NCBI GenBank assembly: GCA_028703835.1
Contig: JAQVMB010000008.1
Location: forward strand, 1 to 58,759
Source of the DNA: Candidatus Peribacteraceae bacterium
Lineage (GTDB): Bacteria; Patescibacteriota; Gracilibacteria; Peribacterales; Peribacteraceae
DNA: 58,759 nucleotides
Reading direction: 5' to 3'
The notes beneath the pieces were generated by a model. It had not been told where the DNA came from, ran no database searches, and saw only the letters and a program-made list of their open reading frames with translations. Below are positions 11,659-57,210 of the stretch, piece by piece. A program made the position numbers and the translations under genes. Each line of letters opens with the position of its first letter. Within the stretch, counting starts at the first letter, position 1.

Positions 11659-12267
11659 TTACGGGTATCGGTGGTCACGTGACCATTTGATCGGATTGTG
11701 AATGATGTAACGCCGGATGGCGTTCATTTCCCGTTCATTCCGGATGATGTGATCGTGGTACCGGGGTTGCCAGGCGAAATCATCCATGCCATGACGACGG
11801 CATAATCGTGTGACGGTGGATTTATACGCATGAATAATGGCCGGTAACGATCCGGATCGTAATGGTCCGAAATCGTTGGTGATGGGTTGAATGGATGCGG
11901 GTTGTTTGGATGTTGGTTGTATGGATGTGGGTTGTAGAGACGCGACATGTCGCGTCTCTACGATTGTTTTTGTTTGTTGTTCCCCGATGATGACGATGCC
12001 ATGGGTATGGTTTGGCATGATGATGAACGTATCCAACGTCACCTGGGGGAAATGCCGTGGAATATCATTCCAACATTCAAATGCAATTGCCCCGGTATCC
12101 GTCAGACATACAAAACCGTTCCGCACCGTTCCGAACCAGGGATATTTTCGGTGCGTGCACAGGGTCACGAAATACCGGCCGGGTGATGTGTAATCCCAGC
12201 CGTTACATCGTGCGGACGGAATGCGGTACGTGTTCCGAAACAGAGCCGAATCCGTTCGTTCTGGCAT
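11659..12267 (-). CDS. REP-associated tyrosine transposase (RAYT, Y1/IS200-like)
   Basis: RAYTs are single-stranded DNA nucleases that act on REP palindromes. The protein has the family start (NGWDYTSPGRYFVTLCTHRKYPWFG), the HUH metal site in PNHTHGIV and the tyrosine helix RRYIIHNPIKW. Between the HUH site and the tyrosine it has a low-complexity insert (QPTSIQPTSKQPASIQPI), part of which is encoded by a perfect 28-bp palindrome. It is convergent with korB, 3 bp apart. It seems intact (202 residues) and so possibly active. Confidence 0.88.
   Translation of the reverse strand: MPERTDSALFRNTYRIPSARCNGWDYTSPGRYFVTLCTHRKYPWFGTVRNGFVCLTDTGAIAFECWNDIPRHFPQVTLDTFIIMPNHTHGIVIIGEQQTKTIVETRHVASLQPTSIQPTSKQPASIQPITNDFGPLRSGSLPAIIHAYKSTVTRLCRRHGMDDFAWQPRYHDHIIRNEREMNAIRRYIIHNPIKWSRDHRYP
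11934..11961. repeat. Perfect 28-bp palindrome inside the RAYT gene
   Basis: GTAGAGACGCGACA pairs exactly with TGTCGCGTCTCTAC, with no loop bases. It is read in frame as VETRHVASL. The shape fits a REP-type substrate of the transposase that contains it. Confidence 0.85.
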
Positions 12268-19231: not shown

Positions 19232-20746
19232 ATGCAATCCGCCGTCCAGCGTCTCCGGGAGTGGCTCGTACTTTTGCTCATCGGCCTGCTGCCCTTTCAT
19301 GCTTTCCTTGTGACCGCGGGGACGAAGCTCGCGCTGGGGCCGAACAACGCGCCGTGGGCGGTGCTGGCGCTGTGGAAAGAGGCTGTGCTGGGAGTGATCC
19401 TTCTTCTTGCGTTGGTGGAATTTATTTTTTCTTCGAAAAGGGCTATCAGCTTTCAGCGATCAGCTTTCAGTGTAGATGTCCTTGATGTTCTCATCCTTTC
19501 GCTCGCAGTCCTTGCGGTCGCGGTGAGCATCTTCGCCGGGACAGAGCGGGGGCTTTTCCTCCTCGGCGTCCGCTACGACTTCGTCCCGCTCGTCGCCTTC
19601 CTGGTCCTCCGCCGCGTACCCTGGTCGGAGGCGTTTCACGGGCGCCTGATGAACGTGCTCCTCGGCGTGGGCGCGCTGGTGTCTTTTCTGGGGATCATCA
19701 GCTTGTTCTTGCCCGTGTCCGCGTTCGTCCGTCTGGGATACGCCGATGCCCACTCGCTCTATACGCCGGGCGGCCCCTTGTCGCCGTTCCAGCAGATCGC
19801 GGAGAGCTGGGTGCGGAGGGTGCAGTCCACGATGAGCGGGCCGAATCAGCTTGGGATCTGGCTGCTGATTCCGTTGGGAGCCTTGCTCTCGTTTTGGATG
19901 GTGCGGGGAGGAGTACGGGAGTACGGGAGTACGGGAGTACGAGGTATGGGAATGAACAACGCAATGTCCCGTATTCCCGTATTCCCGTATTCCCGTATTC
20001 GACGATTCATAATCGTTCTGTCAGCATTCTTCATGCTTTGCGCTCTCTTCCTGACCTTCAGCCGCGCTGCATGGATCGCTGTGTTCGTCATGGTCATCGT
20101 CATGCTCTGGAAAGCATTGCCGCGGCGATGGTTCGTGCGCGCAGCGGTCGGCGGCGGTGCATTGGTCATCGTTGCGGGGATCACCGCAGCCGCCCTCTTT
20201 CCCTCCGTCTTCTTCCGCCTCTCGTCCTCTCGCGGGCACCTGGTCCGTCCGCTGGAGGGGATCGGGAAGATGATCGAGCGGCCGCTGGGGTGGGGTCTGG
20301 GAGCCGCGGGTCCCGCGAGCAACCGCGTCAGCGAAACATGCGTCTTCCTGCGCCCGCAGGACGATCCGTCCTGGGCCAAGGCGCAGCCGCAGCTCTGTGT
20401 TTTCCTGGGCTCCACGCAGGTGCAGCCGACCGATCATGCCTGCCGCTGCCCGTTCCTGCCGGAGAACTGGTACATCCAAATCGGCGTCGAACTGGGGGTG
20501 TTGGGTTTTGCTCTCTTCTTGGCGTTGGTGGTGATGATTCTTCGCCGCTTGAGAAAGAATAATGGACAATTGATAATTGATAATTATCCATCATCCATCA
20601 TCCATTATCAATTCGCCGCGTTCTTGGCATTTCTGGGGGTGAGCATCGCCGCTCTGTTCCTCCACGCCTGGGAAGACGCCGCGGTGGCATACACGGGGTG
20701 GATCCTCATTTCCGTTGCCTTTTCCCGGGGAGGACGGGGGGCGTAG
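19232..20746 (+). CDS. O-antigen ligase/polymerase-like membrane protein with three repeat insertions
   Basis: The 504-residue protein has about ten membrane segments and an FLTFSRAAWIAVFV stretch of the Wzy/WaaL type (PF04932). Ligases of this family attach lipid-linked glycans to an acceptor at the outer face. A large external loop (about residues 330-415) contains cysteines. Three different short-repeat families are inserted in frame, all in loops: SKRAISFQRSAFS (19443-19471), GGVREYGSTGVRG...RIPVFPYSRI (19908-20005) and NNGQLIIDNYPSSIIHYQ (20561-20613). TACTCT is 8 nt before the ATG. It closes a run of surface-glycan genes. Confidence 0.85.
   Translation: MQSAVQRLREWLVLLLIGLLPFHAFLVTAGTKLALGPNNAPWAVLALWKEAVLGVILLLALVEFIFSSKRAISFQRSAFSVDVLDVLILSLAVLAVAVSIFAGTERGLFLLGVRYDFVPLVAFLVLRRVPWSEAFHGRLMNVLLGVGALVSFLGIISLFLPVSAFVRLGYADAHSLYTPGGPLSPFQQIAESWVRRVQSTMSGPNQLGIWLLIPLGALLSFWMVRGGVREYGSTGVRGMGMNNAMSRIPVFPYSRIRRFIIVLSAFFMLCALFLTFSRAAWIAVFVMVIVMLWKALPRRWFVRAAVGGGALVIVAGITAAALFPSVFFRLSSSRGHLVRPLEGIGKMIERPLGWGLGAAGPASNRVSETCVFLRPQDDPSWAKAQPQLCVFLGSTQVQPTDHACRCPFLPENWYIQIGVELGVLGFALFLALVVMILRRLRKNNGQLIIDNYPSSIIHYQFAAFLAFLGVSIAALFLHAWEDAAVAYTGWILISVAFSRGGRGA
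19443..19471. repeat. In-frame TATCAGCTTTCAG-type repeat
   Basis: Two to three copies of a (G)ATCAGCTTTCAGC unit lie in the first cytoplasmic or external loop of the O-antigen ligase-like gene. Confidence 0.65.
19908..20005. repeat. In-frame GTACGGGA repeats with inverted partners
   Basis: GGAGTACGGGAGTACGGG-type units (19910-19945) are followed by their complement CCCGTATTCCCGTATTCC (19967-19999). RNA would form a long imperfect hairpin, yet the reading frame is kept open. The same family occurs before nth and after the nucleotidyltransferase gene. Confidence 0.75.
20561..20613. repeat. In-frame ATTGATAATT/CATCCATCATCC repeats
   Basis: Left units ACAATTGATAATTGATAATT are matched by right units CATCCATCATCCATTATCAATT. 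This is a third repeat family in the same gene; a related one lies at 31145-31213 beside def. Confidence 0.7.
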
Positions 20747-26350: not shown

Positions 26351-26917
26351 ATGTATACGATCACCGACCTCAAGCCCGGCCGTGCCGTCACCCTGGACGG
26401 GCAACCCTTTCTCGTCGTCGCATCGCAATTCGGCCGCAAGAGCCAGAGCAAGGCGAACATGCAGTGCAAGCTGAAGAACTTGAAGACCGGCGCCGTCATC
26501 GCGCGCAACTTCCAGGGATCGGAGAAGATCGAGGAAGCGGACGTAGGCTACCAGCGCGTGCAGTTCCTCTACGGGGACGATGAGCAGGGCTACACCTTCA
26601 TGAACCTCTCGACCTATGACCAGTTCCCGCTGACGGCGGAGACGCTGGAGTCTTCGAAAGGCTACCTCACCGAAGGGCTGGAGTGCGACGCCCTGATGTT
26701 CGAGGACAACCCGATCGGCATCAACATCCCGTCCACGGTCGTCCTGACGGTGCAGGAGACGATTCCGGGCGTGAAGGGCGATACTGCCACGGGCGGCTCG
26801 AAGCCGGCGACCATGAACACGGGCATCTCCGTCAACGTCCCGCTCTTCGTCAACGAGGGCGACAAGGTCCGCGTGAACACGGAGACGGGGGAGTATATGG
26901 AGAGGGCGAATGATTGA
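26351..26917 (+). CDS. efp: Elongation factor P
   Basis: EF-P relieves ribosome stalling at polyproline. All three beta domains are present (188 residues): MYTITDLKPGRAVTLDGQPF, the loop of domain 1, then GYTFMNLSTYDQF and PGVKGDTATGGSKPATMNTG...VPLFVNEGDKVRVNTETGEY. Aligned without gaps to E. coli EF-P, the tip residue that is usually a modified Lys or Arg is Gln32, in the sequence GRKSQSKANMQ. The last 45 bp recur exactly at 27532-27576, with a toxin-antitoxin pair between. Confidence 0.95.
   Translation: MYTITDLKPGRAVTLDGQPFLVVASQFGRKSQSKANMQCKLKNLKTGAVIARNFQGSEKIEEADVGYQRVQFLYGDDEQGYTFMNLSTYDQFPLTAETLESSKGYLTEGLECDALMFEDNPIGINIPSTVVLTVQETIPGVKGDTATGGSKPATMNTGISVNVPLFVNEGDKVRVNTETGEYMERAND
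26873..26917 (+). repeat. Direct repeat, copy 1 (3' end of efp)
   Basis: The last 45 bp of efp, including its stop codon, are identical to 27532-27576. The copies bracket a 614-bp insert that holds the toxin-antitoxin pair. This looks like an attachment-site duplication. Confidence 0.85.
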
Positions 26918-26962
26918 GGATTCCGAGGAAACCAAGGAAGCCGAAGAAGCCGAGGATGTTAG

Positions 26963-27241
26963 TTATGCGATTCTTTGGGTGGTTTGTCTGTAGACAACCG
27001 ATCGGTGCGCGATGAGAAAAATGATCACTTGCCTTTTTTCGATACGGAAAATTACGCGGTAATCTCCCACATGCAAGCGTCTGTAGCCATTCAATGACCG
27101 TCGCAATGGCTTTCCGAATGTTTCCGGCTCCTTTGTCAGTTTCTTCTCAATAGCCGCCTTGATGCGCGATTTTTCCGCTTTCGGCAGGGAGGGGATGTCT
27201 TCGCTGACAACCTTTGCGTGATACGTGAGCACGAAACTCAT
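26963..27241 (-). CDS. RelE/ParE-superfamily toxin
   Basis: The 92-residue protein has the RelE-fold pattern: SFVLTYHAKVVSEDIPSLPK, then KEPETFGKPLRRSLNGYRRLHVGDYRVIFRIEKRQVIIFLIAHR. The conserved basic LHVGDYRVIF strand is intact. RelE-type toxins cut mRNA in the ribosome; ParE types poison gyrase. Which applies here cannot be told. It overlaps its antitoxin gene by ATGA and lies in an insert between two copies of the efp 3' end. Confidence 0.88.
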   Translation of the reverse strand: MSFVLTYHAKVVSEDIPSLPKAEKSRIKAAIEKKLTKEPETFGKPLRRSLNGYRRLHVGDYRVIFRIEKRQVIIFLIAHRSVVYRQTTQRIA

Positions 27242-27459
27242 AACCAGGCTTTCTTATGAGAAACGAATGTCGCATCGGATGTGTCCCGCGCAGCGGCGAT
27301 GGCATTAAGCACATCATCCTCTTCGATTTCTATTGCCAGCTTGATCAAATGCAATGCTTTTGTCGCCTGCGGCACATCATCACGTTCGGCCAGGACATTC
27401 AGTGCCTGTTCCACATCTTCCGGCAAGCTCACATTGATCCGCTTTTTCAGCGTAGGCAT
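27238..27459 (-). CDS. Ribbon-helix-helix antitoxin
   Basis: The 73-residue protein begins MPTLKKRINVSLPEDVEQALNVLAERDD, an N-terminal beta strand and two helices of an RHH DNA-binding domain. The C-terminal region (VLNAIAAARDTSDATFVSHKKAWL) would wrap the toxin. It precedes and overlaps the toxin gene, the usual order. Its promoter carries a palindrome that it probably binds for autorepression. Confidence 0.85.
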   Translation of the reverse strand: MPTLKKRINVSLPEDVEQALNVLAERDDVPQATKALHLIKLAIEIEEDDVLNAIAAARDTSDATFVSHKKAWL

Positions 27460-27475
27460 AGAAATGAGGGGAGAT

Positions 27476-27511
27476 CACTTAAAGTGTAACACCAGTACAT
27501 CACCTGTGCAA
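27476..27511 (-). promoter_or_regulatory. Toxin-antitoxin promoter and likely operator
   Basis: On the minus strand TTGCAC (27511-27506), a 17-bp spacer and TACACT (27488-27483) form a good promoter. The palindrome CACTTAAAGTG (27476-27486) overlaps the -10, where an RHH antitoxin could block polymerase. Confidence 0.65.
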
Positions 27512-27531
27512 GGGGGGCGAACAAAGTCTGT

Positions 27532-27576
27532 GTGAACACGGAGACGGGGGAGTATATGGAGAGGGCGAATGATTGA
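27532..27576 (+). repeat. Direct repeat, copy 2 (displaced efp 3' end)
   Basis: The 45 bp are identical to the end of efp. The 20 bp before it still resemble efp but with changes and one extra base (AACAAAGTCTGTGTG against GACAAGGTCCGCGTG), so it is a remnant gene tail and not a gene. Confidence 0.85.
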
Positions 27577-27689
27577 TCTGGGCTTGTGGTCGCGCGTTCC
27601 TCGGGTACGGGAGGTGAGGAAAGTGAGGAACGTAAGGAAAGGCAGGAGGGTTGAAAGGCGTATCGTTCTTTGCTATGTTTTGGCACTTT

Positions 27690-28343
27690 ATGCCGCAGGA
27701 GTACTGCAAGAATTCTCGGCTATGTTTGCTCTCGGATAGCGAAACGAGGGAAGAGGTTTGGCTGCGTCGGCATCGTCTTCACGCGTCCAACCAAGAGTAT
27801 CTTCAATACATTGCCGATACGGAAAAACGAGGGGCAGTCGTACCCATGACTGAGGAGGAGATCTTGCAGTTCTTTTTGGGAGCGCAATACAGCATGTACG
27901 CAATGGAAGGCGACAAATTGTACTTTACAGATCGTCAGGCTCCCGGGAACGGAAAAGGGATTTGTTATCACCCGACTGAAGATACGAAAGACTCTTTCTA
28001 TAAGGATCAATATGAAGCGCCCGCAGTAGGCCATCTCCTTTGGAGAGAGCACTATGATGAGTTATCCATTCATTCTATGGTGGTGGATGCGGAGTTTCAT
28101 TTTCGTCGATTGATGTACCGAGTGTTGTTGGATGAATTGAAGTCTTTCGTCATTGGGGCGGCAGGCTATCCCGATGTAGAGAAGATTACCGCTGTGGTCC
28201 GTACGGATCTGGAACGACGTTTTTATGAAGAGCATGCTTTTTGTTCCGTTCATTTGCCTTCTGGCAAGGAAGTGATGTGTTGGCAACCCGAGAACGAAGG
28301 GCTTACGAAAACGAACCTACGAAGTCGGAATAAGAAAGCGTGA
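27690..28343 (+). CDS. Hypothetical protein with foreign base composition
   Basis: The 217-residue protein (MPQEYCKNSRLCLLSDSETREE...) has visibly more A/T-ending codons than neighbouring genes. It contains GAQYSMYAMEGDKLYFTDRQ and LDELKSFVIGAAGYPDVEKI and ends in a basic tail. No family is recognised. TATGTT lies 10 nt before ATG 27690; the longer in-frame start at 27651 lies upstream of that hexamer. It is convergent with gatB and sits beside the efp- and gatB-tail duplications, so it is probably part of acquired DNA. Confidence 0.65.
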   Translation: MPQEYCKNSRLCLLSDSETREEVWLRRHRLHASNQEYLQYIADTEKRGAVVPMTEEEILQFFLGAQYSMYAMEGDKLYFTDRQAPGNGKGICYHPTEDTKDSFYKDQYEAPAVGHLLWREHYDELSIHSMVVDAEFHFRRLMYRVLLDELKSFVIGAAGYPDVEKITAVVRTDLERRFYEEHAFCSVHLPSGKEVMCWQPENEGLTKTNLRSRNKKA

Positions 28344-28358: not shown

Positions 28359-28412
28359 TCACAGTTGTTTGAGAAGAATCTCATTCACCATATTCGTCCC
28401 TTGGTTTCGGCT
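28359..28412 (-). pseudogene. Second, diverged copy of the gatB 3' end
   Basis: Eighteen codons on the gatB strand read SRNQGTNMVNEILLKQL-stop, aligning with the real GatB end SKGQANPKIVNDILLRKIGS. It begins 14 bp after the gatB stop. The spacer contains GTCCC...GGGAC, similar to the CCCTGAGC...GAAGGG element at the rlmD and rlmH tails. Codons are more A/T-rich than gatB. Confidence 0.65.
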
Positions 28413-28426
28413 CGGGACAAAAATCG

Positions 28427-29862
28427 TCACGATCCGATTTTGCGCAGGAGTATGTCATTGACGATTTTCGGGTTCGCCTGTCCCTTCGATTGCTTCATGA
28501 CGAAGCCGACGATGGCGCCCAGGGCTGCGGCCTTGCCCGCCTTGTAGGATTCGATGGCTTTCGGATTCGCCGCGATGGCTTCGTCGACAAGCTTCTCGAT
28601 GGCTCCCGTGTCCGAAATTTGCTGCATGCCTTCCGCTGCGATGATATCCTTGGGCGCCTTGCCCGTCGTTACCATCTTCTCCAGCACGTCCTTGGCCGCG
28701 TTGCCGGAGATCTGCCCGCTCGCGATGGCGGAGGCAAGGTCGACGAGATGGGCTGTTGAGGGCCCCTGGGCCACGTCCTTGCCCGCCTCCTTCAGGAAGC
28801 CCATCAGCTGCGTCAGGACGAGGCTGGAGGCCTTCTTCCCGTCCTTCGTGACGGCATGCACGGCGTCGAAGCGCTTGCGCAGGGCGGTCTGGTCCGTGAG
28901 CATCGCCGCTTCCGCATCCGTCAGGCCGAGAGCGCGGTAGTCCGCTTTCAGTTGTGCGGGCATCTTCGGGAGCGTCTTGCGGATGGCTTCGATCTCCTCC
29001 TTTTTGAATTGCAGCGGCGGGATGTCGGGTTCGGGGAAGTAGCGGTAATCGGTGGCGCTCTCCTTGTCGCGCAGCAGGCGCGTGCGGCCTTCGTCGTCCA
29101 TCCAGCCCACGGTGATGTCTCCCTTGGGCGGTCCCTTCTGTTCATTCCACAGCTCGCGCAGGCGATTCTCTTCGTAGATCAAGGCTCGTTCCAATGCCTT
29201 GAACGAGTTGAGGTTCTTGATCTCGCTGCGCGGGTTGAGCTTCTGCGTGCCTTTCTCGCGCAGGGAGATGGATGCGTCGAAGCGCATCATGCCCTTGAAC
29301 ATGTCCGCGTCGCTCGCGCCGACGGCGATGAGGATACGGCGCAAGGCCTCCGCGAACGCCACAGCCTCGTCTGCGTTTCGTAAATCGGGCTCGGTCACGA
29401 TCTCCATCAGCGGCGTGCCGGCGCGGTTGTAGTCGCACAGCGTCAGGGAGCCGCGATGGCTCAGCTTGCCAGCGTCATTCTCCATGTGCAGGCGCGTGAT
29501 GCGGCACACCTTTTCTTCTCCGCCCAGTTCGTACGTCACCTCTCCCTTGGATGCGAGCGGGAAGTCGTACTGCGAAATCTGGTAGCCGGCGGGGAGGTCC
29601 GGGTAGAAGTAGTGCTTGCGGTCGAAGTGGCTGGCGGCGTTCACCGTGCACCCGATGGCGAGGCTTGCTTTCACCGCCTTCGCGACGGCTTCCGCGTTCG
29701 GGACGGGGAGCGTGCCGGGATGGCCCATGCAGATCGGGCACACGGTGGTGTTCGGCTCCTTGCCGAACGCGTCGTTGTCACATCCGCAGAACATTTTCGT
29801 CTTCGTATTCATCTGCGCATGCACCTCCAACCCGATGATTGCTTCTAATTCAACGGACATAC
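28427..29862 (-). CDS. gatB: Asp-tRNA(Asn)/Glu-tRNA(Gln) amidotransferase subunit B
   Basis: GatB, with GatA and GatC (not in this window), converts Glu-tRNA(Gln) or Asp-tRNA(Asn). It starts MSVELEAIIGLEVHAQMNTKTKMFCGC and has the Zn-site cysteines (CGCDN...CPICMGHPG). It also has the kinase core (HFDRKHYFYPDLPAGYQISQYDFPL; DYNRAGTPLMEIVTEPDL) and the YqeY-like tail domain. At 478 residues it is full length. The longer open frame upstream of 29862 reads through a CCCTGAGTGAGG-type repeat and is rejected. Confidence 0.95.
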
Positions 29863-30003
29863 TTGAATCGGAGAGTGAAAGCCGACTTGCCCTGAGTGAG
29901 GAGCGGAGCGACGAGCCGAAGGGTAATGGCTTCCAGTTCCGGCACGGGGAGAGAGTAGCTTCTCTTGATCTTCTGGCGCAAACTGAGCGCGTCGGACGTG
30001 ATA

Positions 30004-31317: not shown

Positions 31318-34300
31318 TTACAGTTGTGCATCGATGCCCTCCAAGTCCAAGTTACGTTCCGTCTTGCGTATTCCTGTTCGATCACTTTCCCAACTGCCAA
31401 CGTCTGCTGCCGCAGGCGCAAGAGACTGAAGCCATGTATTACCTGACAGATAGGGTGCTGGCACGTAGTCATCGCCGAATTGGTAAGGAAGTTTCCATTC
31501 GTAGTCTAATGCTCCAATGAATCCAGCGGCATCACCCTGCGAGGATCCCACTTCGGCTTTCACGGCGTTGCGGTAGAAGCGCGTGTAAGGGGAGGCGGAA
31601 CCGACGAGTCCACCAATTTTGCTGATTCCCTTAATGACGGATCCGCTCTCCACGACAGAATCAACAATAATGCCTTTTCCCATACTGCCCACCAGACCGC
31701 CGGCAGCGGAGGCACCGTCTCTGTCTGCGCCGCCCCACACGGTTCCTTTGAAGGAGGAATGGGAAATGACGCAGGGCAGGGTGGAGCGGTTGATGCAGTA
31801 CCAGCTGCCGATCAGTCCTCCCACGCCCCGTCCCGTGGCTGCTATATCGGCTTCTGCGCGGCTGCCGATAATGGGAAGAGCATTGCTTCCCCCCACCAAT
31901 CCTCCCACGAATGATCCATTTGCGGAGTGACCGAGAGTGATGGTGCCACGGAACAACGAACGGATGAGGCCTACTTTATTTTCTTGCATGCCGTCATCGA
32001 GCGGATTGATGAGATTGAGAGACTGTGCATTATTGCCGATGATTCCACCAACATATTTTTGGCCTCCCTGTACACCCGCCGAACCGAGTTGGGCAGTGGA
32101 GAGCGAATCTTCGATGCGGATAGGCCCCTCCGAAAAGCCCACCAGTCCCCCTGCCTCCTGCTGTTCGATACTGATGAGCGTGTTGCGGACCGAGCAATTG
32201 CTGATGTGCAACATTTTCCATTGCGTATGGCCGATCAGTCCTCCCACGGCTTTCATGCCCCATATTTGTCCGTCGATGACGTGGACGTTTTCCATGAGAA
32301 GGCCGGCTCCTGCTACTTCCGTATCTCCAATGACGCCTCCCACAGCGGTTTTACCGCGTATCGTGGGATTGCGAAGAATCAAGTTTCTGATGCTCCAGAG
32401 AGGAGAGAGACCCGGAAAAGAATATCCGTTGTGGCCGCGATGGAAGAGTCCCACTTTCGAATCGAGGCTGTCCACGACGGTCGGGTTGCGAATTTCGTAC
32501 CCGTTTCCATCCAAAGAACCACCGAGGTCGATGGGGGACATGTTGGAAATCGCGATGAAATCCAAGTTGGCGATGAGGCGGAATTGGTCGCGCCCGCAGT
32601 GAAGTTTCTCGTCTTTCGTCAAATTGTCAAAATCTGCACAATACGCGGGGAAGCCCGCGTCTGGAACATACATATTCGAGAGGCCTCCTCGGGATTGTCT
32701 TTGGATGAACTTGTAGGCGTTTTCCGCGGCGTTACGAAGTTGGTCGGGAGTACAGACAAGGAAGGGATCTCCTTCGGTTCCCTGTCCTCCTGCAAATGAG
32801 CCGGAGGAGGTCAGAGCCGGGTCGTCGCAGCGAGGATCATTTGCTTTCGGAGGAGGGAGCGTTTCTCCGGGGAGCGGGAACGGACCAGCGGGAGAGTAAT
32901 CCGCAATGCCTGGAATCAAGTGCGTCGTTCCTTGATGCTGTTTCTGGAGCTTGGGATTGGTCACGGTAATGTTCAAGACCTCATCGTAATGCGCATCGCC
33001 CCACACGGAGAAGAAGTGGGGGAAACCCTGTTGTCCCCAGCCGATGCCCTTGTCGGTTCTGGTGCTCTGTATGTTCACTTGGAGCTCCTTCAAATCATCT
33101 GAAGTCATCCCGCGGACGAAATATCCTTCATAAATGTTCGAGGGGGCAAGATAAGAATTCTTTTCCGGCCATATTTCTTTATAGATTCCCGGATCAAAGT
33201 CCAAGAGAGCAGGAGAAACTACGGGGGCTTGGATATGCAACGTCACTTGTTTTTCAATGGCTTGGTCTTCGCCGTTTCCCCGGTAGACCGAACGGTACGC
33301 GAGGGGGATGGTCGTGTCCGGGAAGAGGGCTTTCTCTTGCCACTCGTTGCCCGTGACGATGGGGATGGGGAGGAGAGAGCCTCGCTTGGTCCAAGCTTCT
33401 TTGTCATCTGCTTTCATTGCCTGCAAGACACTCGTCATCGTGCTGTTCTCGCTCGTCCATTCTGTCAGTGGCCCCATAGCGTTGGTGAAGTCATGGTGGC
33501 GGATTGGTGCCCAGTAATCTCCTCCTTGGATGGGGTCGAATATGTTCAGTTCCGGGAAGACATTGATTATGAAGGGTTTCAAGGGAGTGTAGTCGCGTGC
33601 AACAGAGAAAACACCGTTTGTGTCTGCTTCAATGGGTTCCGGAAAATTGGTTGCGGTTTGGTATCCTTGAGGCGGCGCCGTTTCGGCGCTGAAACGAATG
33701 CCAAGCAGCGGATACTTGGGAACCGTCACGGAAATTTGTGCTTTCAATCCCCGCCCGTAGAGAGATGTAATCGTTGCGCTGAAGCCCGGTTTTTCATTCA
33801 TCGGAAGCACGAAGGGGCTTGCCCATATACCGAGACCATTGTTTGCAATCATCTTTGGATTATCGATGGAGAGCGACGCTTCCGATGACAAATTGCAGAT
33901 GCGACCGTTCGATTCGTGACCGATGATGAAAAGTCCCGTGGACGAGTCCTTGGAGGCACCCTGCCAAATCATGAATTGAGGTGCCGGCCTGAGGTCGGGG
34001 AGTTTGTACGTGCATCGGTTGTTTCCCCAACTACTGCTCGGAATTCCCGTGATTTCGATGTACTCCAATTGGTCCGTTTGCCCGGTTTGCGTATCGAAGG
34101 GAACGATGCGGATGGGGGTGGTCTTGGTCTGGCCGTTGAGACGGGCGGAAACGGTGTATGTCTGAGCATTGCCGTTCGCTGTCAGGCTTTGCCTGCTCGG
34201 ATAGACGATGCCCTGCTCATCGATAGGCAGGCGGACAGGATCACTCGTTTGCCAAGTGACATCGGCAGGTGGAATGACAGTGAAAGAATTGCCTTCGTCA

Positions 34301-37300
34301 TATCGGCGGAGGACGAAGAGTGCGCGGCTCTGGAAGTTGAGGAGGGGTTTTTTTGTCATCAGCTCCACCCGGTCGAAGTTTTCCGTGACCGTAAAGGGCA
34401 GCACAGAGGTGAAGGTTTCATCCTTCCCTTGTCCACGGAAGGGAACGGTAGCCTGTACCGTGTAGGTGCCGGGAGTGAGAGAAGCCGTTTGAATCTTCGT
34501 CTCCTTGCTATCCTGCAATTGCAGCGTGAGATCGTTGCTCAGAGAAGTCCACGTTGCTCGCGCGGGGCGGTCCACACTCTCCCCTTGCACATTGATGAGG
34601 GATTGGAGGGTGAGCGTTTGTCCCCGGAAGACGGATTTTCCGAGCGGATTCAGGATGCAGGAGGGGCCGTTCTCTTCCCTTCCCAGACACGTGCCCGGCT
34701 CAGCTTTCTGAACTTCAATGACGGCGGAGACGGCATGGCCGTCGACCGTGGCGGTAACGGTGTATCGTTTGCCGCCGTAGGCATCCACGGTGCTGAAGAA
34801 GCCGTGGAGTGGGGGGATAAGGGAAAATTCAGAGGGGATATCCGTGGTCCAGGAGGCTTCAGGAGTGTAATCCACCACAAAATCCGTCGTTTCATTCCGG
34901 AAAGTTTCCACAAGTTGGAAAGAGAATCCCGCTTTTCCCCATGTGGCCTTGAAAGGTTTTTCCGCGGATCCATTTTCTTCCTCTGGATCTGTGCCGGGCT
35001 TGATCATGCTCAAGCCCTCGGACACGAATTCGTCGGGTGTAGCTGCCTTTCGGATCGCGAGATTGAACGAAGCATCAAATTCTTCGTAGTGTCCTATGAT
35101 GCGAAGTCTCTGCAAATTCTTCAAAGATTCTGCGTTGGCGGTGAGTGTCACCTGCCCATTGGGAGCGATGGGGAGAAGGAGATCATCCTGTGTAGTCCAA
35201 AATGCATCCATTGTCACGTTTTTCGTCGTTCCGTCCTTTGCGAGGAGTACGGCATGGAACATTGTTGTTTCTCCCGGGAACAGGCCCGCTTTATCTGGTT
35301 GGATAATCAAGCGATCTGAAGGGGACACGTCCTCATCGGGTTTCCATCCTTCGCTCGCTCGTGGATTGTCCGAGGGAATTCTCCGGCGTTGGTCATCCGT
35401 CATGCCGTCGAGGCTGTGCAGGTACTCCGCAAGTTGTTGGAAATCGAGTACGCGTCCTTTGCGCACTTTCTTCTCCAGAGCTGGTACTTTGCGCGCAGCA
35501 TTCTCCAGCACGTCCTCAATCAGCCAGGAATCATAGTACCAGTTATGCTGCTTGAAGTAGCCGATGACAAGAGCCGCTGCGGCCGACACTTGCGGTGCAG
35601 CGACGGAGGTTCCATCCGTGCCTGCCACGGCATTTCCGAGTCCATAGGAAGCGATGTTCGTGGCGGGGGCCAGGAGTTCCACCGCATCGCCATAGTTCGA
35701 GAAACGGTACAGGCGATCCGCCCCGGTTTCCAATCCTCCCACGGTCACTGCACCTTGGAAGTACCGCCCCCAGCAGGCCGGAGCGACGGTATTTCCGTAC
35801 ACGGCAGGTCGATCATCCGATGGCCAGATAAGGCGGCCCGGAATGTTCTGGCCGTTTTCGTCTACCTTGATTCCGTTCCCTGCGGAGAAGACAAAGAACA
35901 CGTTGTTTTCCAGTGCTTTGTAGATGGCGTGCCCTATGACCGGATTACAGAGATCCCTGTCGTACTCGGCCATGCTTATGTTAATGACGTCCGCGCCGGC
36001 GTTGACGGCGTGCTTGATGGCTTCGAAGAGATCGGATGTCCGAAGCTTTTGCATGTCTGTGGCATTGCGGGCGATTTTGATGGGGAGGAGGACCGCGTTC
36101 ACGCTCGCCAAGCCCTGTACCTTCGATCCTTGACCCATCGTGATCAAGCTTCCCACAGCAGTGCCGTGTCCAACGGCGTCCTGCGGATCGTCGGGAGCTT
36201 CGTCCGTCGGGCAATCTTCTTTTTTGGCTTTGTGGCAGAACTGAGCAGCTGTCCTGTTGGAGCCTTCCAGATTGGGAGATAGTTCGGGGGTTGCGGGATT
36301 GTTCAGGTCGAATCCCGTATCGATGGTCGCCACGACTACCTTGCCCTTACGGTCACTTGCGAGGGCATTCTGGAAGAATGATCGTGCCTGGGTGTAATGC
36401 GTTGCATCCAGGTAGGCGAAGCTGGGGGCGACCGAGGAAGAAGAAACGGCCTCGGAGCGCACATCTTCCTCGCCCGGCACCGTGATGCCGATAATGCAGG
36501 AATCTTCCTTCACATGTTTCCAGAGATCGTCGTAGGGCGTATTGAAGTTCAGGTGCAGGTCGTACACCGCGTCTTCCATCATCGTTGCCTTGGAAGGGGC
36601 AGGCGGAGGTGCAGGGAGGTAGCCGTCAAAGAACATATTCTGCCCGTCTTTCATGCGCGTCCTCCTGCAGCGATCGTCAACTGTGATGAGGAGGGGGAGG
36701 GAGCCTGGCACGATCTTCTTCGCAGTCGCTGTAGCGGGAGGGGGAGGGGGTGAGTCATCAGATTGACCTGTAGCATCTGCGATAAGAGAAGCTGTCCAAT
36801 CTTTTAAGCCATTCCAGAGACGTCCGAGAGCCAAGGGAGAGGTTGTTTGCAACTGTTCGTCGGGAATGGCGAGCGGCTGCTTGGCGAAGGGGGAAACTTG
36901 CGTGTCCGCTCCCGCTTCCATCGTGCAGAGGGAGGAGCAGCCGTCATCGTTCGTCGCGTTGCCATCGTCACACTCCTCTTCCGCTTGTACATATCCGTCG
37001 CCGCAGGCTGCCGCTCCGCACTTGTTGGTGCACGTATCCGTATTCACGGTGTTGCCATCGTCGCAATCTTCCCCTGCATCCACGACGCCGTTGCCGCAGG
37101 AAATGACGGAGAGGAGGTGGGCAGGCGAAGCGAGGACCGTGCCGCTGGCCGTGGGAGAGCTCGTCACAATCGATGCGCCGTACGTGCCATTGCGGACGAT
37201 GGAGGAGGTCCTCAGGCTCAAGAGAATGGTTTTTGTCCCTCCTCCTGGAAGATCACCCACTGCACAGGTGGCAGCGGGGGAGCCAACGATGGGGGAGCAG

Positions 37301-39924
37301 GATGTGTCCGAGAAATCAGGCAGGAAGGTATCGTTCGCATCCAGCGGCAGCGTGAGGGAGAGGGCTTTGGCGGTCCCTGCCCCGCGGTTTTCCACCGTCG
37401 TTTTCAGCTGAGCGGTCCCTCCGACAAATACTTGATCCGTTCCGGTGATCGACACGGCGAGGAGGCTCTCCTTCTCACAGCGAGAGGTGCAGCTGTCGCC
37501 ATTCGTCGCGTTGCCATCGTCACACTCCTCTCCCGTTCCCACGAACCCGTCTCCGCACATTGCCTTCTTGCACGTGTTGATGCAGGTGTCTGTATCGATC
37601 CTGTTCCCATCGTCACATTCTTCCCCCTGCTGCACGAGACCGTCTCCGCATACTGCTGTCTTGCAGCCATTCGAGCAGCCGTCCCCGTTCGTCGCATTCC
37701 CATCGTCACATTCTTCCCCTTTCTCCTTGATCCCATTGCCGCACAAGACGGTCTGACATTCGCTGGAACAGCCATCTCCATCCACGAGGTTCCCGTCATC
37801 GCAGCCTTCTCCGGCTTCCGTGAGGCCATTCCCGCAGACCGGGTTCCTGCACTCGTTGCTGCAAGCATCGCTCGCGACTCTATTCCCATCGTCACATTCT
37901 TCCCCGCTCTGCGTGAATCCGTCGCCGCACATGGCTTTCTTGCATGCATTCGAGCAGGTGTCGCCATTCTCGGCATTTCCGTCATCACATTCTTCGGTGC
38001 CTTGCATGATGCCGTCGCCGCACCTGGCTATCTTGCAGGCATTCGAGCAGGTGTCATCATTCGTGTTGTTCCCATCATCGCATTCCTCGTCCTGTTGCAC
38101 GATGGCATCCCCGCAGCGGGGGAGTCCGCAGGCATTCGTGCATCCGTCTGCATTCTCCATATTGCCGTCGTCGCAGGCTTCGCCGGGTTGAACGATGTTG
38201 TCGCCGCACATCGCCTTTTTGCATGCGTTCGTGCAGGTATCTTCGTTTTGGGTATTCCCATCGTCACATTCTTCCCCGCTCTGCGTGAATCCGTCGCCGC
38301 ACATGGCTTTCTTGCATGCATTCGAGCAGGTGTCGCCATTCTCGGCATTTCCGTCATCACATTCTTCGGTGCCTTGCATGATGCCGTCGCCGCATTTCGT
38401 GATCTTGCATGTAGTCGAGCAGCTGTCAGTTGCCACATCATTTCCATCATCACATTCTTCCCCGTTTTGCGTGAACCCGTCGCCGCAACGGGCTGACTTG
38501 CACATATTTGTGCATGCATCGTCGTTCTCGAAATTCTTGTCATCGCACTCTTCCATTCCTTCTTTCACGCCGTCGCCGCAGCGGATGGTCTTGCAGGATG
38601 CCGAGCAGGTCGTAGAGGAAAGGTTTCCTTCATCACATTCTTCTTCGTTCTGCATGAATCCGTCACCACATACTGCAATTTTGCAGGCATTGGTGCAGGT
38701 GTCTCTGTTCTCGACATTCCCGTCATCGCATTCCTCGGCTCCCTGGCGGAGGCCGTCGCCGCACCTGGGCAGCTTGCAGGAAGCGGTGCAGGCATCGCCG
38801 TTTCCGCCATCGCATTCTTCTCCGCTTTGTACAAAGCCGTCTCCGCAGGAGGCATTTCTGCAGGAAGCGGTACAGTCGTCCGTGTCATTCTTGTTTCCGT
38901 CATCGCACTCTTCTCCGTTCTGCAAGAATCCGTCGCCGCACGTGGCGTTCTTGCATGCGCTCGTGCACGCATCGCCATCCTCGGCATTTCCGTCGTCGCA
39001 CTCTTCTCCGCTCTGTACGAATCCATCGCCGCAGACCCCCTTCTTGCAAGAGGTGGTGCAGCCGTCCTCATTGACGGTGTTTTTGTCATCACATTCCTCC
39101 GCTCCCTGACGAATCCCGTCGCCGCAGGCAGGCAGTGAACACAGGTTCGTACAGCCGTCCTCGTCCGCCTGGTTTCCGTCGTCGCATTCCTCGGCACCCT
39201 GCTTCATCCCGTTTCCGCAAACTGCGTTCTTGCACGTATTGGAGCAGATATCGTCATTGACCGCATTCCCGTCATCACATTCCTCTTCGGCATCTATGGT
39301 TCCATTCCCGCAGGCAATGGCGGGTTGAGCGGCGCAGAAGGCGGGGAACAGAAGCAGATCCACGTTGTCCCGGAGGGAGGGATCCGCCGTCAGGCCCGTC
39401 GCGTATCCCCACAGCATAAGGGAAACAGGGCAGCTGTCGCTATCTTCCACAACCAACAGAAAAGGAATGGTGATTTCTTCCTTTTCAGCCATTTCGGGGA
39501 GTTGGCACGAGAGGGCGTTCTCATACCCTTGGGGTTGGGTACACGATGGAAGGAGTGGGAGGATGGACAATCCCTTCCCCTTGCTCCCGTAGAGAATGAG
39601 GGTGACTTTTTCCGCGGGGTTCGGTCCTCTGTTGCTTACCGTGACGGAGAGTATGGAACCAGTATTGACCGTCACGCTTCCCAGAGGCGCAAAATGAATG
39701 TTTAAGTCTGCCTCCTTTTTGCATTTCGTGGAGCAGCCGTCCCCGTTTGTTTGATTCCCGTCATCACACTGTTCCTGGGCTTCGACTGTTCGGTTCCCGC
39801 AAATGCCAGCCGAAGATGCTGCAAAAGAATCCGCCGTCGGCTGCGCGGCGAAAGCGAAAAGAAAGGAGACAGTGCTTATCAGAAGAAGCGGAGCAGCGGG
39901 AAGCTGCAGAGGAAAAAGACGCAT
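31318..39924 (-). CDS. Giant secreted protein: Cys-rich repeats, subtilase, beta-helix (2868 residues)
   Basis: A signal peptide (MRLFPLQLPAAPLLLISTV..., about residues 1-30) is followed by a region with 23 copies of a Cys-rich DUF4215-like repeat of about 31 residues (pattern CGDGxxQxGEECDDGNxxNxDxCxxxC). Copy 1 is at about 41, copies 2-21 at about 205-820 and copies 22-23 at about 940-1005. DUF11/CARDB-like domains sit at about 72-200 and 820-940. A Pro-rich linker leads to an S8 subtilisin domain with the complete triad: Asp in VVATIDTGFD (~1200), His in VGHGTAVGS (~1253) and Ser in GTDGTSVAAPQVS (~1439). Several Ig-like domains follow. The last ~370 residues contain GLUG-type repeats (VGGVIGD, VGGLIGH, AGGLVGF, VGGIIGN). 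There is no LPXTG motif or C-terminal membrane anchor. The repeats are Asp/Glu-rich and probably bind Ca2+. A role as a surface protease/adhesin is inferred. The nearby DsbA-like protein could oxidise its many cysteines. Confidence 0.88.
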   Translation of the reverse strand: MRLFPLQLPAAPLLLISTVSFLFAFAAQPTADSFAASSAGICGNRTVEAQEQCDDGNQTNGDGCSTKCKKEADLNIHFAPLGSVTVNTGSILSVTVSNRGPNPAEKVTLILYGSKGKGLSILPLLPSCTQPQGYENALSCQLPEMAEKEEITIPFLLVVEDSDSCPVSLMLWGYATGLTADPSLRDNVDLLLFPAFCAAQPAIACGNGTIDAEEECDDGNAVNDDICSNTCKNAVCGNGMKQGAEECDDGNQADEDGCTNLCSLPACGDGIRQGAEECDDKNTVNEDGCTTSCKKGVCGDGFVQSGEECDDGNAEDGDACTSACKNATCGDGFLQNGEECDDGNKNDTDDCTASCRNASCGDGFVQSGEECDGGNGDACTASCKLPRCGDGLRQGAEECDDGNVENRDTCTNACKIAVCGDGFMQNEEECDEGNLSSTTCSASCKTIRCGDGVKEGMEECDDKNFENDDACTNMCKSARCGDGFTQNGEECDDGNDVATDSCSTTCKITKCGDGIMQGTEECDDGNAENGDTCSNACKKAMCGDGFTQSGEECDDGNTQNEDTCTNACKKAMCGDNIVQPGEACDDGNMENADGCTNACGLPRCGDAIVQQDEECDDGNNTNDDTCSNACKIARCGDGIMQGTEECDDGNAENGDTCSNACKKAMCGDGFTQSGEECDDGNRVASDACSNECRNPVCGNGLTEAGEGCDDGNLVDGDGCSSECQTVLCGNGIKEKGEECDDGNATNGDGCSNGCKTAVCGDGLVQQGEECDDGNRIDTDTCINTCKKAMCGDGFVGTGEECDDGNATNGDSCTSRCEKESLLAVSITGTDQVFVGGTAQLKTTVENRGAGTAKALSLTLPLDANDTFLPDFSDTSCSPIVGSPAATCAVGDLPGGGTKTILLSLRTSSIVRNGTYGASIVTSSPTASGTVLASPAHLLSVISCGNGVVDAGEDCDDGNTVNTDTCTNKCGAAACGDGYVQAEEECDDGNATNDDGCSSLCTMEAGADTQVSPFAKQPLAIPDEQLQTTSPLALGRLWNGLKDWTASLIADATGQSDDSPPPPPATATAKKIVPGSLPLLITVDDRCRRTRMKDGQNMFFDGYLPAPPPAPSKATMMEDAVYDLHLNFNTPYDDLWKHVKEDSCIIGITVPGEEDVRSEAVSSSSVAPSFAYLDATHYTQARSFFQNALASDRKGKVVVATIDTGFDLNNPATPELSPNLEGSNRTAAQFCHKAKKEDCPTDEAPDDPQDAVGHGTAVGSLITMGQGSKVQGLASVNAVLLPIKIARNATDMQKLRTSDLFEAIKHAVNAGADVINISMAEYDRDLCNPVIGHAIYKALENNVFFVFSAGNGIKVDENGQNIPGRLIWPSDDRPAVYGNTVAPACWGRYFQGAVTVGGLETGADRLYRFSNYGDAVELLAPATNIASYGLGNAVAGTDGTSVAAPQVSAAAALVIGYFKQHNWYYDSWLIEDVLENAARKVPALEKKVRKGRVLDFQQLAEYLHSLDGMTDDQRRRIPSDNPRASEGWKPDEDVSPSDRLIIQPDKAGLFPGETTMFHAVLLAKDGTTKNVTMDAFWTTQDDLLLPIAPNGQVTLTANAESLKNLQRLRIIGHYEEFDASFNLAIRKAATPDEFVSEGLSMIKPGTDPEEENGSAEKPFKATWGKAGFSFQLVETFRNETTDFVVDYTPEASWTTDIPSEFSLIPPLHGFFSTVDAYGGKRYTVTATVDGHAVSAVIEVQKAEPGTCLGREENGPSCILNPLGKSVFRGQTLTLQSLINVQGESVDRPARATWTSLSNDLTLQLQDSKETKIQTASLTPGTYTVQATVPFRGQGKDETFTSVLPFTVTENFDRVELMTKKPLLNFQSRALFVLRRYDEGNSFTVIPPADVTWQTSDPVRLPIDEQGIVYPSRQSLTANGNAQTYTVSARLNGQTKTTPIRIVPFDTQTGQTDQLEYIEITGIPSSSWGNNRCTYKLPDLRPAPQFMIWQGASKDSSTGLFIIGHESNGRICNLSSEASLSIDNPKMIANNGLGIWASPFVLPMNEKPGFSATITSLYGRGLKAQISVTVPKYPLLGIRFSAETAPPQGYQTATNFPEPIEADTNGVFSVARDYTPLKPFIINVFPELNIFDPIQGGDYWAPIRHHDFTNAMGPLTEWTSENSTMTSVLQAMKADDKEAWTKRGSLLPIPIVTGNEWQEKALFPDTTIPLAYRSVYRGNGEDQAIEKQVTLHIQAPVVSPALLDFDPGIYKEIWPEKNSYLAPSNIYEGYFVRGMTSDDLKELQVNIQSTRTDKGIGWGQQGFPHFFSVWGDAHYDEVLNITVTNPKLQKQHQGTTHLIPGIADYSPAGPFPLPGETLPPPKANDPRCDDPALTSSGSFAGGQGTEGDPFLVCTPDQLRNAAENAYKFIQRQSRGGLSNMYVPDAGFPAYCADFDNLTKDEKLHCGRDQFRLIANLDFIAISNMSPIDLGGSLDGNGYEIRNPTVVDSLDSKVGLFHRGHNGYSFPGLSPLWSIRNLILRNPTIRGKTAVGGVIGDTEVAGAGLLMENVHVIDGQIWGMKAVGGLIGHTQWKMLHISNCSVRNTLISIEQQEAGGLVGFSEGPIRIEDSLSTAQLGSAGVQGGQKYVGGIIGNNAQSLNLINPLDDGMQENKVGLIRSLFRGTITLGHSANGSFVGGLVGGSNALPIIGSRAEADIAATGRGVGGLIGSWYCINRSTLPCVISHSSFKGTVWGGADRDGASAAGGLVGSMGKGIIVDSVVESGSVIKGISKIGGLVGSASPYTRFYRNAVKAEVGSSQGDAAGFIGALDYEWKLPYQFGDDYVPAPYLSGNTWLQSLAPAAADVGSWESDRTGIRKTERNLDLEGIDAQL
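37881..38022 (-). repeat. Recent internal duplication, copy A
   Basis: About 142 bp are, by eye, identical to 38253-38394, offset by 372 bp (four 31-codon repeats). This indicates recent unequal recombination among the Cys-rich repeats. Confidence 0.8.
38253..38394 (-). repeat. Recent internal duplication, copy B
   Basis: This is the partner of 37881-38022. Repeat units further away are clearly diverged, so this exact identity is recent or maintained by gene conversion. Confidence 0.8.
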
Positions 39925-40599: not shown

Positions 40600-40662
40600 G
40601 AGGCGGCAACTATACTCCCGGCGAGGGTTCTTTCGAGACAGTTTCCTTTCCATTTTGGGACG

Positions 40663-40760
40663 GGGAGTACGGGAGTACAGGAATACTGGAGTACGGGAGT
40701 ATGAGTATGTACTTTAACTTTCCTCGTATTCCCGTATTCCAGTATTCTCGTATTCTTCGT
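40663..40760. repeat. GTACGGGA/TATTCCCG palindromic repeat array before nth
   Basis: Left units GGGGAGTACGGGAGTAC (40663-40700) are mirrored by right units CGTATTCCCGTATTCCAG (40724-40760). The right half contains several TATTCY hexamers that may serve as the nth -10. Confidence 0.75.
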
Positions 40761-41453
40761 ATGCCAAGACGTAACGCCGTTTCCGTTCATCGGGTTATCC
40801 AGGACTTGGAGTCGCTCTACGATCCTCCCCGCTCCTTCCTCACGTGGGAGACGCCCTTCGAACTCCTCATCGCCACGATCCTCAGCGCCCGCTGCACGGA
40901 TGCGCAGGTGAACAAAGTGACGCCGGGATTGTTCCGTACGTACCGGACGCCGGAGGATTATGTGAAGGCTTCCGTTGCGGCGGTGGAGAAAGACATCCAT
41001 TCGTGCGGGACGTTCCGCATGAAAACGAAGAACATCCGCAGCCTGTGCCGGAAGCTGATCGAAGAATTCGGCGGGAAGGTGCCGCAGACCATGCAGGAAT
41101 TGGTATCGCTGTCCGGGGTGGGGCGGAAAACGGCTTCCATCGTCCTCTACGCCGCTTTCGGCCAGCAGGAGGGCATCGCGGTGGATACGCATGTGCAGCG
41201 GTTGTCGCTTCGTTTGGGCCTTTCGATGCACCAGACGCCGGAAAAGATCGAACGGGATCTGATGGCGCAGGTGCCTCGGGAAAAGTGGGGCGTGCTGAAC
41301 ACGTTGATGATAAGCCACGGTCGCGCCGTTTGCACCGGAAGGAACCGGAAATGCGGCGCCTGTATTTTCAAGGATGCGTGTCCTTCGTCCCTGACGCGGG
41401 GGAAACGGGATCTGGCAACAAAACGTGTAGATGGAGTTTGGCAGAGTGTATGA
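40761..41453 (+). CDS. nth: Endonuclease III
   Basis: This base-excision glycosylase/lyase removes oxidised pyrimidines. The 230-residue protein has the helix-hairpin-helix LSGVGRKTASIVLYA with the catalytic Lys, the catalytic Asp in GIAVDTHVQRLSLRLG, and a [4Fe-4S] motif C-x6-C-x2-C-x5-C near the C-terminus (CTGRNRKCGACIFKDAC). ATG 40761 follows the TATTCC/TATTCT repeat array directly; the upstream ATG at 40701 lies inside the repeats. Confidence 0.94.
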   Translation: MPRRNAVSVHRVIQDLESLYDPPRSFLTWETPFELLIATILSARCTDAQVNKVTPGLFRTYRTPEDYVKASVAAVEKDIHSCGTFRMKTKNIRSLCRKLIEEFGGKVPQTMQELVSLSGVGRKTASIVLYAAFGQQEGIAVDTHVQRLSLRLGLSMHQTPEKIERDLMAQVPREKWGVLNTLMISHGRAVCTGRNRKCGACIFKDACPSSLTRGKRDLATKRVDGVWQSV

Positions 41454-51853: not shown

Positions 51854-51923
51854 CGGGGAGAGCGTAGCGGGATGGACGGTTATTTTGAAGGAGCCTTCGG
51901 AATGCGAAGAGGACGAAGGAAAG

Positions 51924-51962
51924 AATACGGGAATACTGGAGTACTGGAATACGGGGGTGCAA
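51924..51962. repeat. AATACGGGAATACTGG repeat array
   Basis: Units of (G)AATACGGGAATACTGGAGTAC repeat here between the nucleotidyltransferase and the half sugar-transferase gene. It is the same family as 19908-20005 and 40663-40760. Confidence 0.65.
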
Positions 51963-53831: not shown

Positions 53832-53873
53832 GCGGTGGTAAAAAGGTATTATTTATACTATATTCTCCGTAAG

Positions 53874-55325: not shown

Positions 55326-55350
55326 CCGGCGACCCTGAGCGAGTCGAAGG

Positions 55351-55374
55351 GTGGCGCTGTTGCAGAGGAAGTAG
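55351..55374 (+). pseudogene. Displaced copy of the rlmD 3' end
   Basis: The 24 nt read VALLQRK-stop, the same as the real end of rlmD, but almost every codon differs at the third base (GTG GCG CTG TTG CAG AGG AAG TAG against GTC GCC CTC CTC CAA AGG AAA TAA). Between the two lies CCCTGAGCGAGTCGAAGGG. Confidence 0.8.
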
Positions 55375-55413: not shown

Positions 55414-55776
55414 TTACGGAATTTGCATCAAGCGCGTGAGGAGATAGCTTAATCGCGCACAATGGTCGATGCATGCCGTTGCATCTTCTTCGCTTACCAG
55501 ACCCAGTTCCGCACTCAGATCGATAAAATTGTCCACCTCGACTGTGGAACCCCGGGCGCGCTGATAGTAGGCGTTACGGTGTGCTTGGGAACGCATGGCT
55601 GATCCTTCGGCAATATTTGCCATCACTGAACTTGCGGCGCGGCGCAGTTGTGATCTGAGATTGAATTGTGCATCTGGTGGAAATAGTTTTGTAATTTTGT
55701 AGACGTTCAATGTCAATTTCTTTGCTTCTTGCCATACGATGAGATTCCGAAAACCGGTGTCCATTTGTCGTTGCAT
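55414..55776 (-). CDS. Four-helix-bundle protein (rRNA IVS-type family)
   Basis: The 120-residue protein fits TIGR02436: FRNLIVWQEAKKLTLNVYKITKLFP, LRSQLRRAASSVMANIAEGSAMRS, YYQRARGSTVEVDNFIDLSAELGLVSEED, then a last helix. The family is known from 23S rRNA intervening sequences and scattered single genes; its function is unknown (related proteins form pentamers or bind nucleic acid). TACTAT is 6 nt before ATG 55776. It is flanked by inverted purine-rich repeats and lies just after the rlmD tail duplication, suggesting arrival with mobile DNA. Confidence 0.87.
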   Translation of the reverse strand: MQRQMDTGFRNLIVWQEAKKLTLNVYKITKLFPPDAQFNLRSQLRRAASSVMANIAEGSAMRSQAHRNAYYQRARGSTVEVDNFIDLSAELGLVSEEDATACIDHCARLSYLLTRLMQIP

Positions 55777-55801
55777 GTTGCGATAGTAATCCAACGGAAC
55801 T

Positions 55802-55845
55802 TTTCTGCCTTTCCTGCCCTTTCTTACCTTTCTGCCCTCCCCCAG
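55802..55845. repeat. TTTCTGCCTTTCCTGCCC repeats, right flank of the four-helix gene
   Basis: This is the inverted counterpart of 55376-55409. Related units lie at 13707-13733 and 27606-27655. Confidence 0.65.
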
Positions 55846-55894
55846 AAGGCTGCAAGGGTTACACAAAAAAGAGGTTCCACGCTACCATGGAACC

Positions 55895-56359: not shown

Positions 56360-56384
56360 ACTGTCACCCTGAGCCTGTCGAAGG

Positions 56385-56435
56385 GAGCTCTACCGCGCGG
56401 TGCAGATCGGGAAGGGGACGGGATACCACCACTGA
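56385..56435 (+). pseudogene. Displaced native-like copy of the rlmH 3' end
   Basis: The 17 codons read ELYRAVQIGKGTGYHH-stop, matching the RlmH end (Q)LYRSVQITKGTGYHH, but with the GC-rich codons usual for this genome. A CCCTGAGCCTGTCGAAGGG element separates it from the working stop codon. Confidence 0.85.
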
Positions 56436-56445
56436 GCGGCACGGT

Positions 56446-56754: not shown

Positions 56755-56807
56755 GGGGACAGGATACCCGAAGATGTGCCGTTCGGGATGGCGGGGAAAG
56801 GGGAGTA

Positions 56808-57062: not shown

Positions 57063-57159
57063 GATATGAGGGGGAAAGAAATGAAACATAATGAATATAT
57101 ATTCATAAATAATGACGGTCAAGCATTTCGGACGGATATTCCCGCCATTGATTCCCATG

Positions 57160-57210
57160 CAGTCCCGCCGCGCGGTGCGGATCGGGAAGGGGGCGGGATA
57201 CCATCAATAA
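57160..57210 (+). pseudogene. Third copy of the rlmH 3' end
   Basis: The 17 codons read QSRRAVRIGKGAGYHQ-stop. From 57168 on it is nearly identical in DNA to 56393-56427 (CCGCGCGGTGC, GATCGGGAAGGGG and CGGGATACCA shared). Copies 2 and 3 bracket the DUF134-DUF5320 pair as direct repeats. Confidence 0.85.

Follow-up and report, generated by a model that had tools for sequence, protein, structure and literature searches.

A GatB C-terminal relic behind gatB of a Candidatus Peribacteraceae contig and its probable place among palindrome-carried gene ends

The window analysed here, a stretch of 58,759 nt from a Candidatus Peribacteraceae genome (G000; contig JAQVMB010000008.1), carries a relic of a second GatB C-terminus directly behind gatB. 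Our analysis confirmed that the relic is real, though short and decayed, and its best reading is as one side of an insertion that swaps gene ends rather than as a stray foreign copy. At the sites on which this reading draws, a palindrome of fixed polarity stands between two homologous, differently coded gene ends, and its CGAAGGG edge touches the second. The end attached to the gene (X') and the end displaced behind the palindrome (X) encode versions of one peptide in different codons. We hold with good confidence that palindrome-carried gene ends of this layout form a class, and the gatB site is probably a member of it. At gatB it is undecided which end replaced which, and the palindrome is degenerate, so the gatB case rests on its better-preserved siblings, including rlmD and rlmH in the same window.

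The gatB relic and its siblings in the window

The features concerned are as follows.

27651-28343, plus strand: A/T-rich gene in the gatB-efp gap, without a Pfam family and possibly cargo
28359-28397, minus strand: displaced GatB C-terminal relic X (..MVNEILLKQL stop), nhmmer E 0.0015
28398-28416, minus strand: degenerate palindrome CCCGAGCCGAAACCAAGGG, with no second loose match on this strand of the window
28417-28426, minus strand: spacer of 10 nt from the gatB stop to the palindrome, read from the sequence
28427-29863, minus strand: gatB (Pfam GatB_N and GatB_Yqey), the last ~42 nt being the attached end X'
53835-55325, plus strand: rlmD with its attached end X'
55333-55351, plus strand: palindrome CCCTGAGCGAGTCGAAGGG behind rlmD
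55351-55374, plus strand: displaced rlmD end X (VALLQRK stop), differently coded
55895-56359, plus strand: rlmH with its A/T-rich attached end X'
56367-56385, plus strand: palindrome CCCTGAGCCTGTCGAAGGG behind rlmH
56386-56435, plus strand: displaced rlmH end X
57163-57210, plus strand: third rlmH end copy, past two small minus-strand ORFs, no palindrome

After the gatB stop (28427), the minus strand reads CGATTTTTGT / CCCGAGCCGAAACCAAGGG / ACGAATATGGTGAATGAGATTCTTCTCAAACAACTGTGA, and the relic, 39 nt long, starts 29 nt past the stop, directly after AAGGG. A nucleotide profile was built on 23 gatB 3' ends from other members of the family, with the window's own end excluded. Its top match in the window was 28405-28361 on the minus strand, with an E value of 0.0015 against 3.1 for the second-best match; with a longer model, of 180 nt, the relic had E 0.015. 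The diverged GatB C-terminus of the original prediction was thus recovered, and the clean part of the proposed alignment, from 29 nt past the stop, stood, while the stretch through SRNQG proved to be palindrome. In a plain survey of ORF tails the copy scored 34, and 0.4 such matches are expected among the 247 ORFs of the window. That score is unremarkable, so the copy is carried by the profile and by its position. At the 29 other gatB loci no comparable copy was present within the downstream stretch covered (best score 29).

The hairpin separates the two ends of gatB. Its likeness to the hairpins at rlmD and rlmH had been foreseen correctly in substance: on the window's minus strand nothing but CCCGAGC..AAGGG loosely matches the rlmD/rlmH palindrome, 0.0012 being expected per 40 nt, and its polarity and its abutment on the displaced end are those of the class. 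The GTCCC..GGGAC repeat originally named is weak and was dropped as evidence, as a 5-bp inverted repeat occurs in 9% of random 25-mers. Being degenerate, the gatB palindrome lies outside the patterns used for all counts given below. In a 30-nt comparison the gatB copy was nearest other genera (0.77 to G013 and G014) and the attached end was nearest genus-mates (0.67); against three genus-mates the attached end gave 0.60-0.67 and the copy 0.60-0.63, and on 30 nt of sequence the native and the foreign end cannot be told apart.

At rlmD and rlmH the layout is end X' with its stop, a short spacer, CCCTGAGC..CGAAGGG, and the abutting displaced end X. The attached end of rlmD reads GTC GCC CTC CTC CAA AGG AAA TAA and is followed by 7 nt and CCCTGAGCGAGTCGAAGGG; the displaced end reads GTG GCG CTG TTG CAG AGG AAG TAG, so that the seven residues are unchanged and the codons differ. 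The attached end of rlmH has a GC content of 0.39 and is followed by 7 nt and CCCTGAGCCTGTCGAAGGG, against 0.65 for the displaced version, and 13 of the 15 residues compared are identical. Compared with three genus-mates, the displaced rlmD end gave 0.83-0.88 and the attached end 0.71-0.75; for rlmH the values were 0.71-0.77 and 0.62-0.65, respectively. Among 29 rlmH ends the attached one was nearest those of three g17 genomes, and its best foreign DNA matches in genomes of the order were in G120 and G063, both g17. As its nearest match is the genus g17, the attached end is foreign, at rlmH at least. The original prediction had cast the displaced copy as the foreign part, which is unsupported as put, because at rlmH and rlmD the displaced copy looks native and the attached end odd.

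At 29 other rlmH loci no end copy was found behind the gene; in G054, outside that set, an rlmH end copy lies ~840 nt away. The third rlmH end copy of the window (the whole being 56386-57210) suggests two nested events at one gene; the two minus-strand ORFs before it are at 56446-56811 and 56808-57158. An orphan rlmH 3' fragment of 50 residues, 82% identical and without a palindrome, was seen on another contig of the genome (L083 10344-10493, contig C6 of G000). A gene for a 23S rRNA-intervening-sequence protein (55414-55866) adjoins the displaced rlmD end.

Counts and recurrence of palindrome-carried gene ends

The least selected set is a near-complete census of one palindrome form, CCCTGAGCNTGTCGAAGGG, in 74 genomes of the family, in which 122 matches were read and 117 were unique with enough flank; G066:C112 (covered by L219) and G054:C11 (at a contig edge) were omitted. 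Flanks translating alike at a score of at least 40 were found at 20 of the 117 palindromes, where shuffling predicts 0.3 and an offset control gave 3 of 115; these hits include some that are not plain gene ends (L348, L349, L374 and L382, by appearance longer or tRNA-linked repeats) and weak ones (L177, L335 and L396). At a score of at least 45 there were 15, against 0.15 expected from shuffling and none in the offset control. About four fifths of the census palindromes had no copy, which counts against the reading.

Three pooled counts, which include loci picked for palindromes or for likeness to the unit, bear on the same layout. An ORF-anchored scan of family loci found copies of the upstream gene's end past the palindrome, at a score of at least 25, in 9 of 87 rows for one orientation and 0 of 74 for the other, with 0.23 expected. 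A test independent of gene calls extended the pattern to opposite-strand gene starts and to tRNA ends. In the IMG/VR contigs, as a point against the reading, none of 25 palindromes reached a score of 40. An initial survey that used greedy gene calls was discarded for its noise. In 20 curated cases with 209 codons, 73 codons were identical, 99 were recoded to the same residue and 37 changed the residue. These counts imply that each end was already evolving as coding sequence when the two were joined.

The ends of further cases were compared by eye on their sequences. At an epimerase gene (G082) and a methyltransferase gene (G003) the displaced end was closer to relatives; at the DHCAKEFR gene (G073 and G066), a case that speaks against the reading, the attached end was closer and the displaced one farther. 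The ends of tpiA, tried as a discriminator of donor and host, did not separate the two. An identical codon, within a base, was targeted across genera in sodA (G042 and G057), the epimerase gene (G082 and G016) and the DWRTIQ gene (G115 and G042), and at one codon of tatD in G082 two units stand in tandem. The names tatD, sodA, tpiA, uvrB, secA and epimerase are presumed from the peptides rather than taken from a family search. Beyond the family, a genome collection gave 22 palindromes in 14 stretches, and the only clear new cases were two Acidobacteriia genes that we take to be kinases; stretches L204 and L198 were repeats, and L194 (CALRCM010000001.1, Candidatus Peribacteria), which carries the unit of G082, was not counted as new. 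Peribacteria form a class within Candidatus Peregrinibacteriota. The two kinase genes lie on one contig and have an identical stretch of palindrome, spacer and start, which in each gene follows a displaced start of its own and precedes a different body. The recurrence at the same codons and the identical unit in these two genes argue for movement of the unit between homologous genes, in more than one phylum.

Two further loci of G003 may be recorded here. At L118 14643-15296 a sodA-like end copy (WDEV.RRF.EAK) lies 141 nt past the gene without a palindrome; the gene carries the palindrome in G042 and G057. The tpiA-like gene of L108 has, at residues about 163-200, an in-frame insert of ~36 residues that most relatives lack. 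Several genomes contain matching fragments at other places, some of them interrupted by stops, and the insert therefore looks like an intergenic repeat turned coding.

A possible mode of insertion and its relation to known systems

The displaced ends of rlmD and rlmH are nearer to genus-mates and the attached end of rlmH is nearest to another genus, so the unit looks like a foreign gene end with a spacer and a hairpin. Such a unit, composed of X', a spacer of ~5-41 nt (the spacers measured for tpiA and HCVTQQ, taken with shortened end sequences, being overstated) and the palindrome, would have been inserted inside the gene end. X' would substitute for the end that was lost, leaving the gene whole, and the original end X would be pushed behind the palindrome. 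The gatB copy, with its gap of 10 nt, its CCCGAGC..AAGGG palindrome and its X of 39 nt, would be an older, partly decayed member. As an explanation of the whole, gatB included, a palindrome unit that swaps gene ends is the one we favour, with moderate confidence.

How the unit might be joined is a more doubtful matter. The intermediate may be a single strand whose end lies at the palindrome's 3' foot and which pairs with its target through the homology of X' and X; a short guide situated 5' of the foot of the hairpin would pair with the start of X, where the strand would be joined; trimming of the upstream flap, followed by replication, would then fix the unit. An HUH/Y1-type nuclease or a DNA-uptake process could drive these steps. 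In 34 cases, the weak L177, L335 and L396 included, the bases 5' of the stem paired with the start of X at 116 of 170 positions, where 94.3 +/- 4.5 are expected and none of 5000 shuffles reached that number; the signal weakened with distance (p 0.024 at positions 3-8), and the palindrome's own arm may account for part of it. Tentatively, the class could represent a non-autonomous, hairpin-ended unit that enters the gene ends of other bacteria by homing, directed by its guide and by the differently coded version of the interrupted end that it carries, and so spreads between genera while leaving the host gene unharmed.

In its polarity, its fixed joining edge and the apparent pairing of the bases 5' of its stem with the beginning of the displaced end, the palindrome is reminiscent of the guided hairpins of IS200/IS605 and REP elements. 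In those hairpins, as described in the passages of PMC6006769 and PMC8266576 considered here, the guide lies 5' of the hairpin foot, and the REP/RAYT system (TnpA-REP, Y1 HUH) likewise has short palindromes near gene ends. In contrast to REP/RAYT, the GTAG foot was not seen here, the RAYT gene is not flanked by the palindrome, and a foreign gene end is carried, which goes unmentioned for REP in the passages of PMC3733652, PMC6006769 and PMC8266576 considered. A RAYT-like gene occurs in 35 of 70 genomes of the family, and none of 30 RAYT loci of the family had the palindrome, which leaves a RAYT origin of the palindrome unsupported. The RAYT-like gene of the window (11659-12267) matched Y1_Tnp at E 0.009, below the family cut-off.

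Integrative elements such as tRNA islands, and SCC at rlmH, restore the end of the gene that they enter. Like them, the unit displaces the old end of a gene and brings a substitute for it; it differs in being ~50-110 nt long and free of an integrase, in having many target genes, and in affecting gene starts as well as ends. In insertion with long target duplication, known for restriction-modification and toxin genes, the flanking copies duplicate the host's own sequence. An insert flanked by target copies is common to both, but the rlmH and rlmD copies are not host duplicates: the attached rlmH end is nearest g17 and the displaced one nearer its own genus. We found no description of palindromes carrying gene ends in the open-licence PMC papers searched.

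The main rival to the gene-end-swapping unit is one-sided, homology-facilitated illegitimate recombination after DNA uptake, the hairpin being a break-prone site or an uptake sequence and not a mobile unit. In that process homology acts on one side and joining is illegitimate on the other, according to the part of PMC3240628 considered. It would account for a foreign attached end with a retained native end, and two observations fit it: the tract common to the Acidobacteriia kinase genes runs past the displaced part into the gene body, and the methyltransferase end of G003 diverges after a shared run of 22 identical nt. Against it, the illegitimate side lies not at arbitrary short matches but always at the same palindrome edge in one polarity, the same codons recur, and in tatD a second unit was added at a site already occupied. 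We regard this rival as possible but not likely.

If the gene-end-swapping unit is as proposed, the junctions record what joined what (foreign gene end, hairpin, old gene end) and would leave a countable footprint of the entry of repeats into genomes. Palindromic repeats behind bacterial genes are common and their spread is poorly understood. Such units would account for many odd C-terminal and N-terminal gene fragments, and would mean that gene ends are exchanged between genera in an uncultured group. For annotation, tandem gene-end fragments are not necessarily duplications.

The gatB-efp interval and other features of the window

In the family, gatB and efp are often convergent, tail to tail. 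The check for empty sites in relatives was run and gave them: in G001 and G002, of the same genus, gatB and efp lie tail to tail ~30 nt apart with nothing between. In the window's genome the gap holds a copy of the efp 3' end, a ParE-like toxin gene with a ribbon-helix-helix gene, the A/T-rich gene and the gatB copy. The A/T-rich gene (GC 48% vs 60%) was found in 4 of the 115 genomes searched, its own included, always between gatB and efp. It is 58% identical to its counterpart in G075, of another genus, and 46% to that in the genus-mate G003, and the order is opposite for gatB (70% and 82%, respectively). The idea that the gene is cargo is thus partly supported, by its base composition, its distribution and relationships that disagree with those of gatB.

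The original prediction had further implied that the gatB copy came with this neighbour, a fragment of donor gatB end plus gene having been inserted behind a complete gatB. Both the copy (44% GC) and the gene are A/T-rich, the gene's discordant relationships are in keeping with joint arrival, and so is the nearness of the copy to other genera. However, G003, G075 and G081 have the gene straight after gatB and without the gatB end copy, the attached gatB end is itself just 51% GC, and joint arrival leaves the palindrome between the ends unexplained. On balance we find joint arrival unlikely.

Tandem duplication of the host's own gene ends with decay of the spare copy is much less probable still. 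It fits efp, whose last 56 nt are repeated 659 nt downstream with 95% identity (26862-27576); at rlmD and rlmH, in contrast, comparison with relatives shows less change in the spare copy than in the attached end, which is divergent and looks foreign, so that in-place duplication was rejected there on the end comparisons and is contradicted at rlmH. Chance likeness of an intergenic stretch to GatB is hardly credible, for although the relic is only 39 nt long, with E values of 0.0015 to 0.015 and an ORF-tail score not significant alone, it is the best match in 58.8 kb, lies directly behind gatB on the same strand with its stop where one should be, and adjoins a palindrome that has the polarity of the class.

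The efp site is an end duplication around a toxin-antitoxin pair: the ParE-like toxin and ribbon-helix-helix genes lie between the efp end and its copy, and the palindrome is absent. It resembles the insertions with long target duplication mentioned above. Two other features of the window were recorded. A protein of 2868 residues (31318-39924) contains some twenty 93-nt repeats, rich in CGDG and ECDDGN, and 8-nt tandem units of the GTACGGGA / CGTATTCC kind form three clusters, at 19884-20008, 40646-40763 and 51896-51955.
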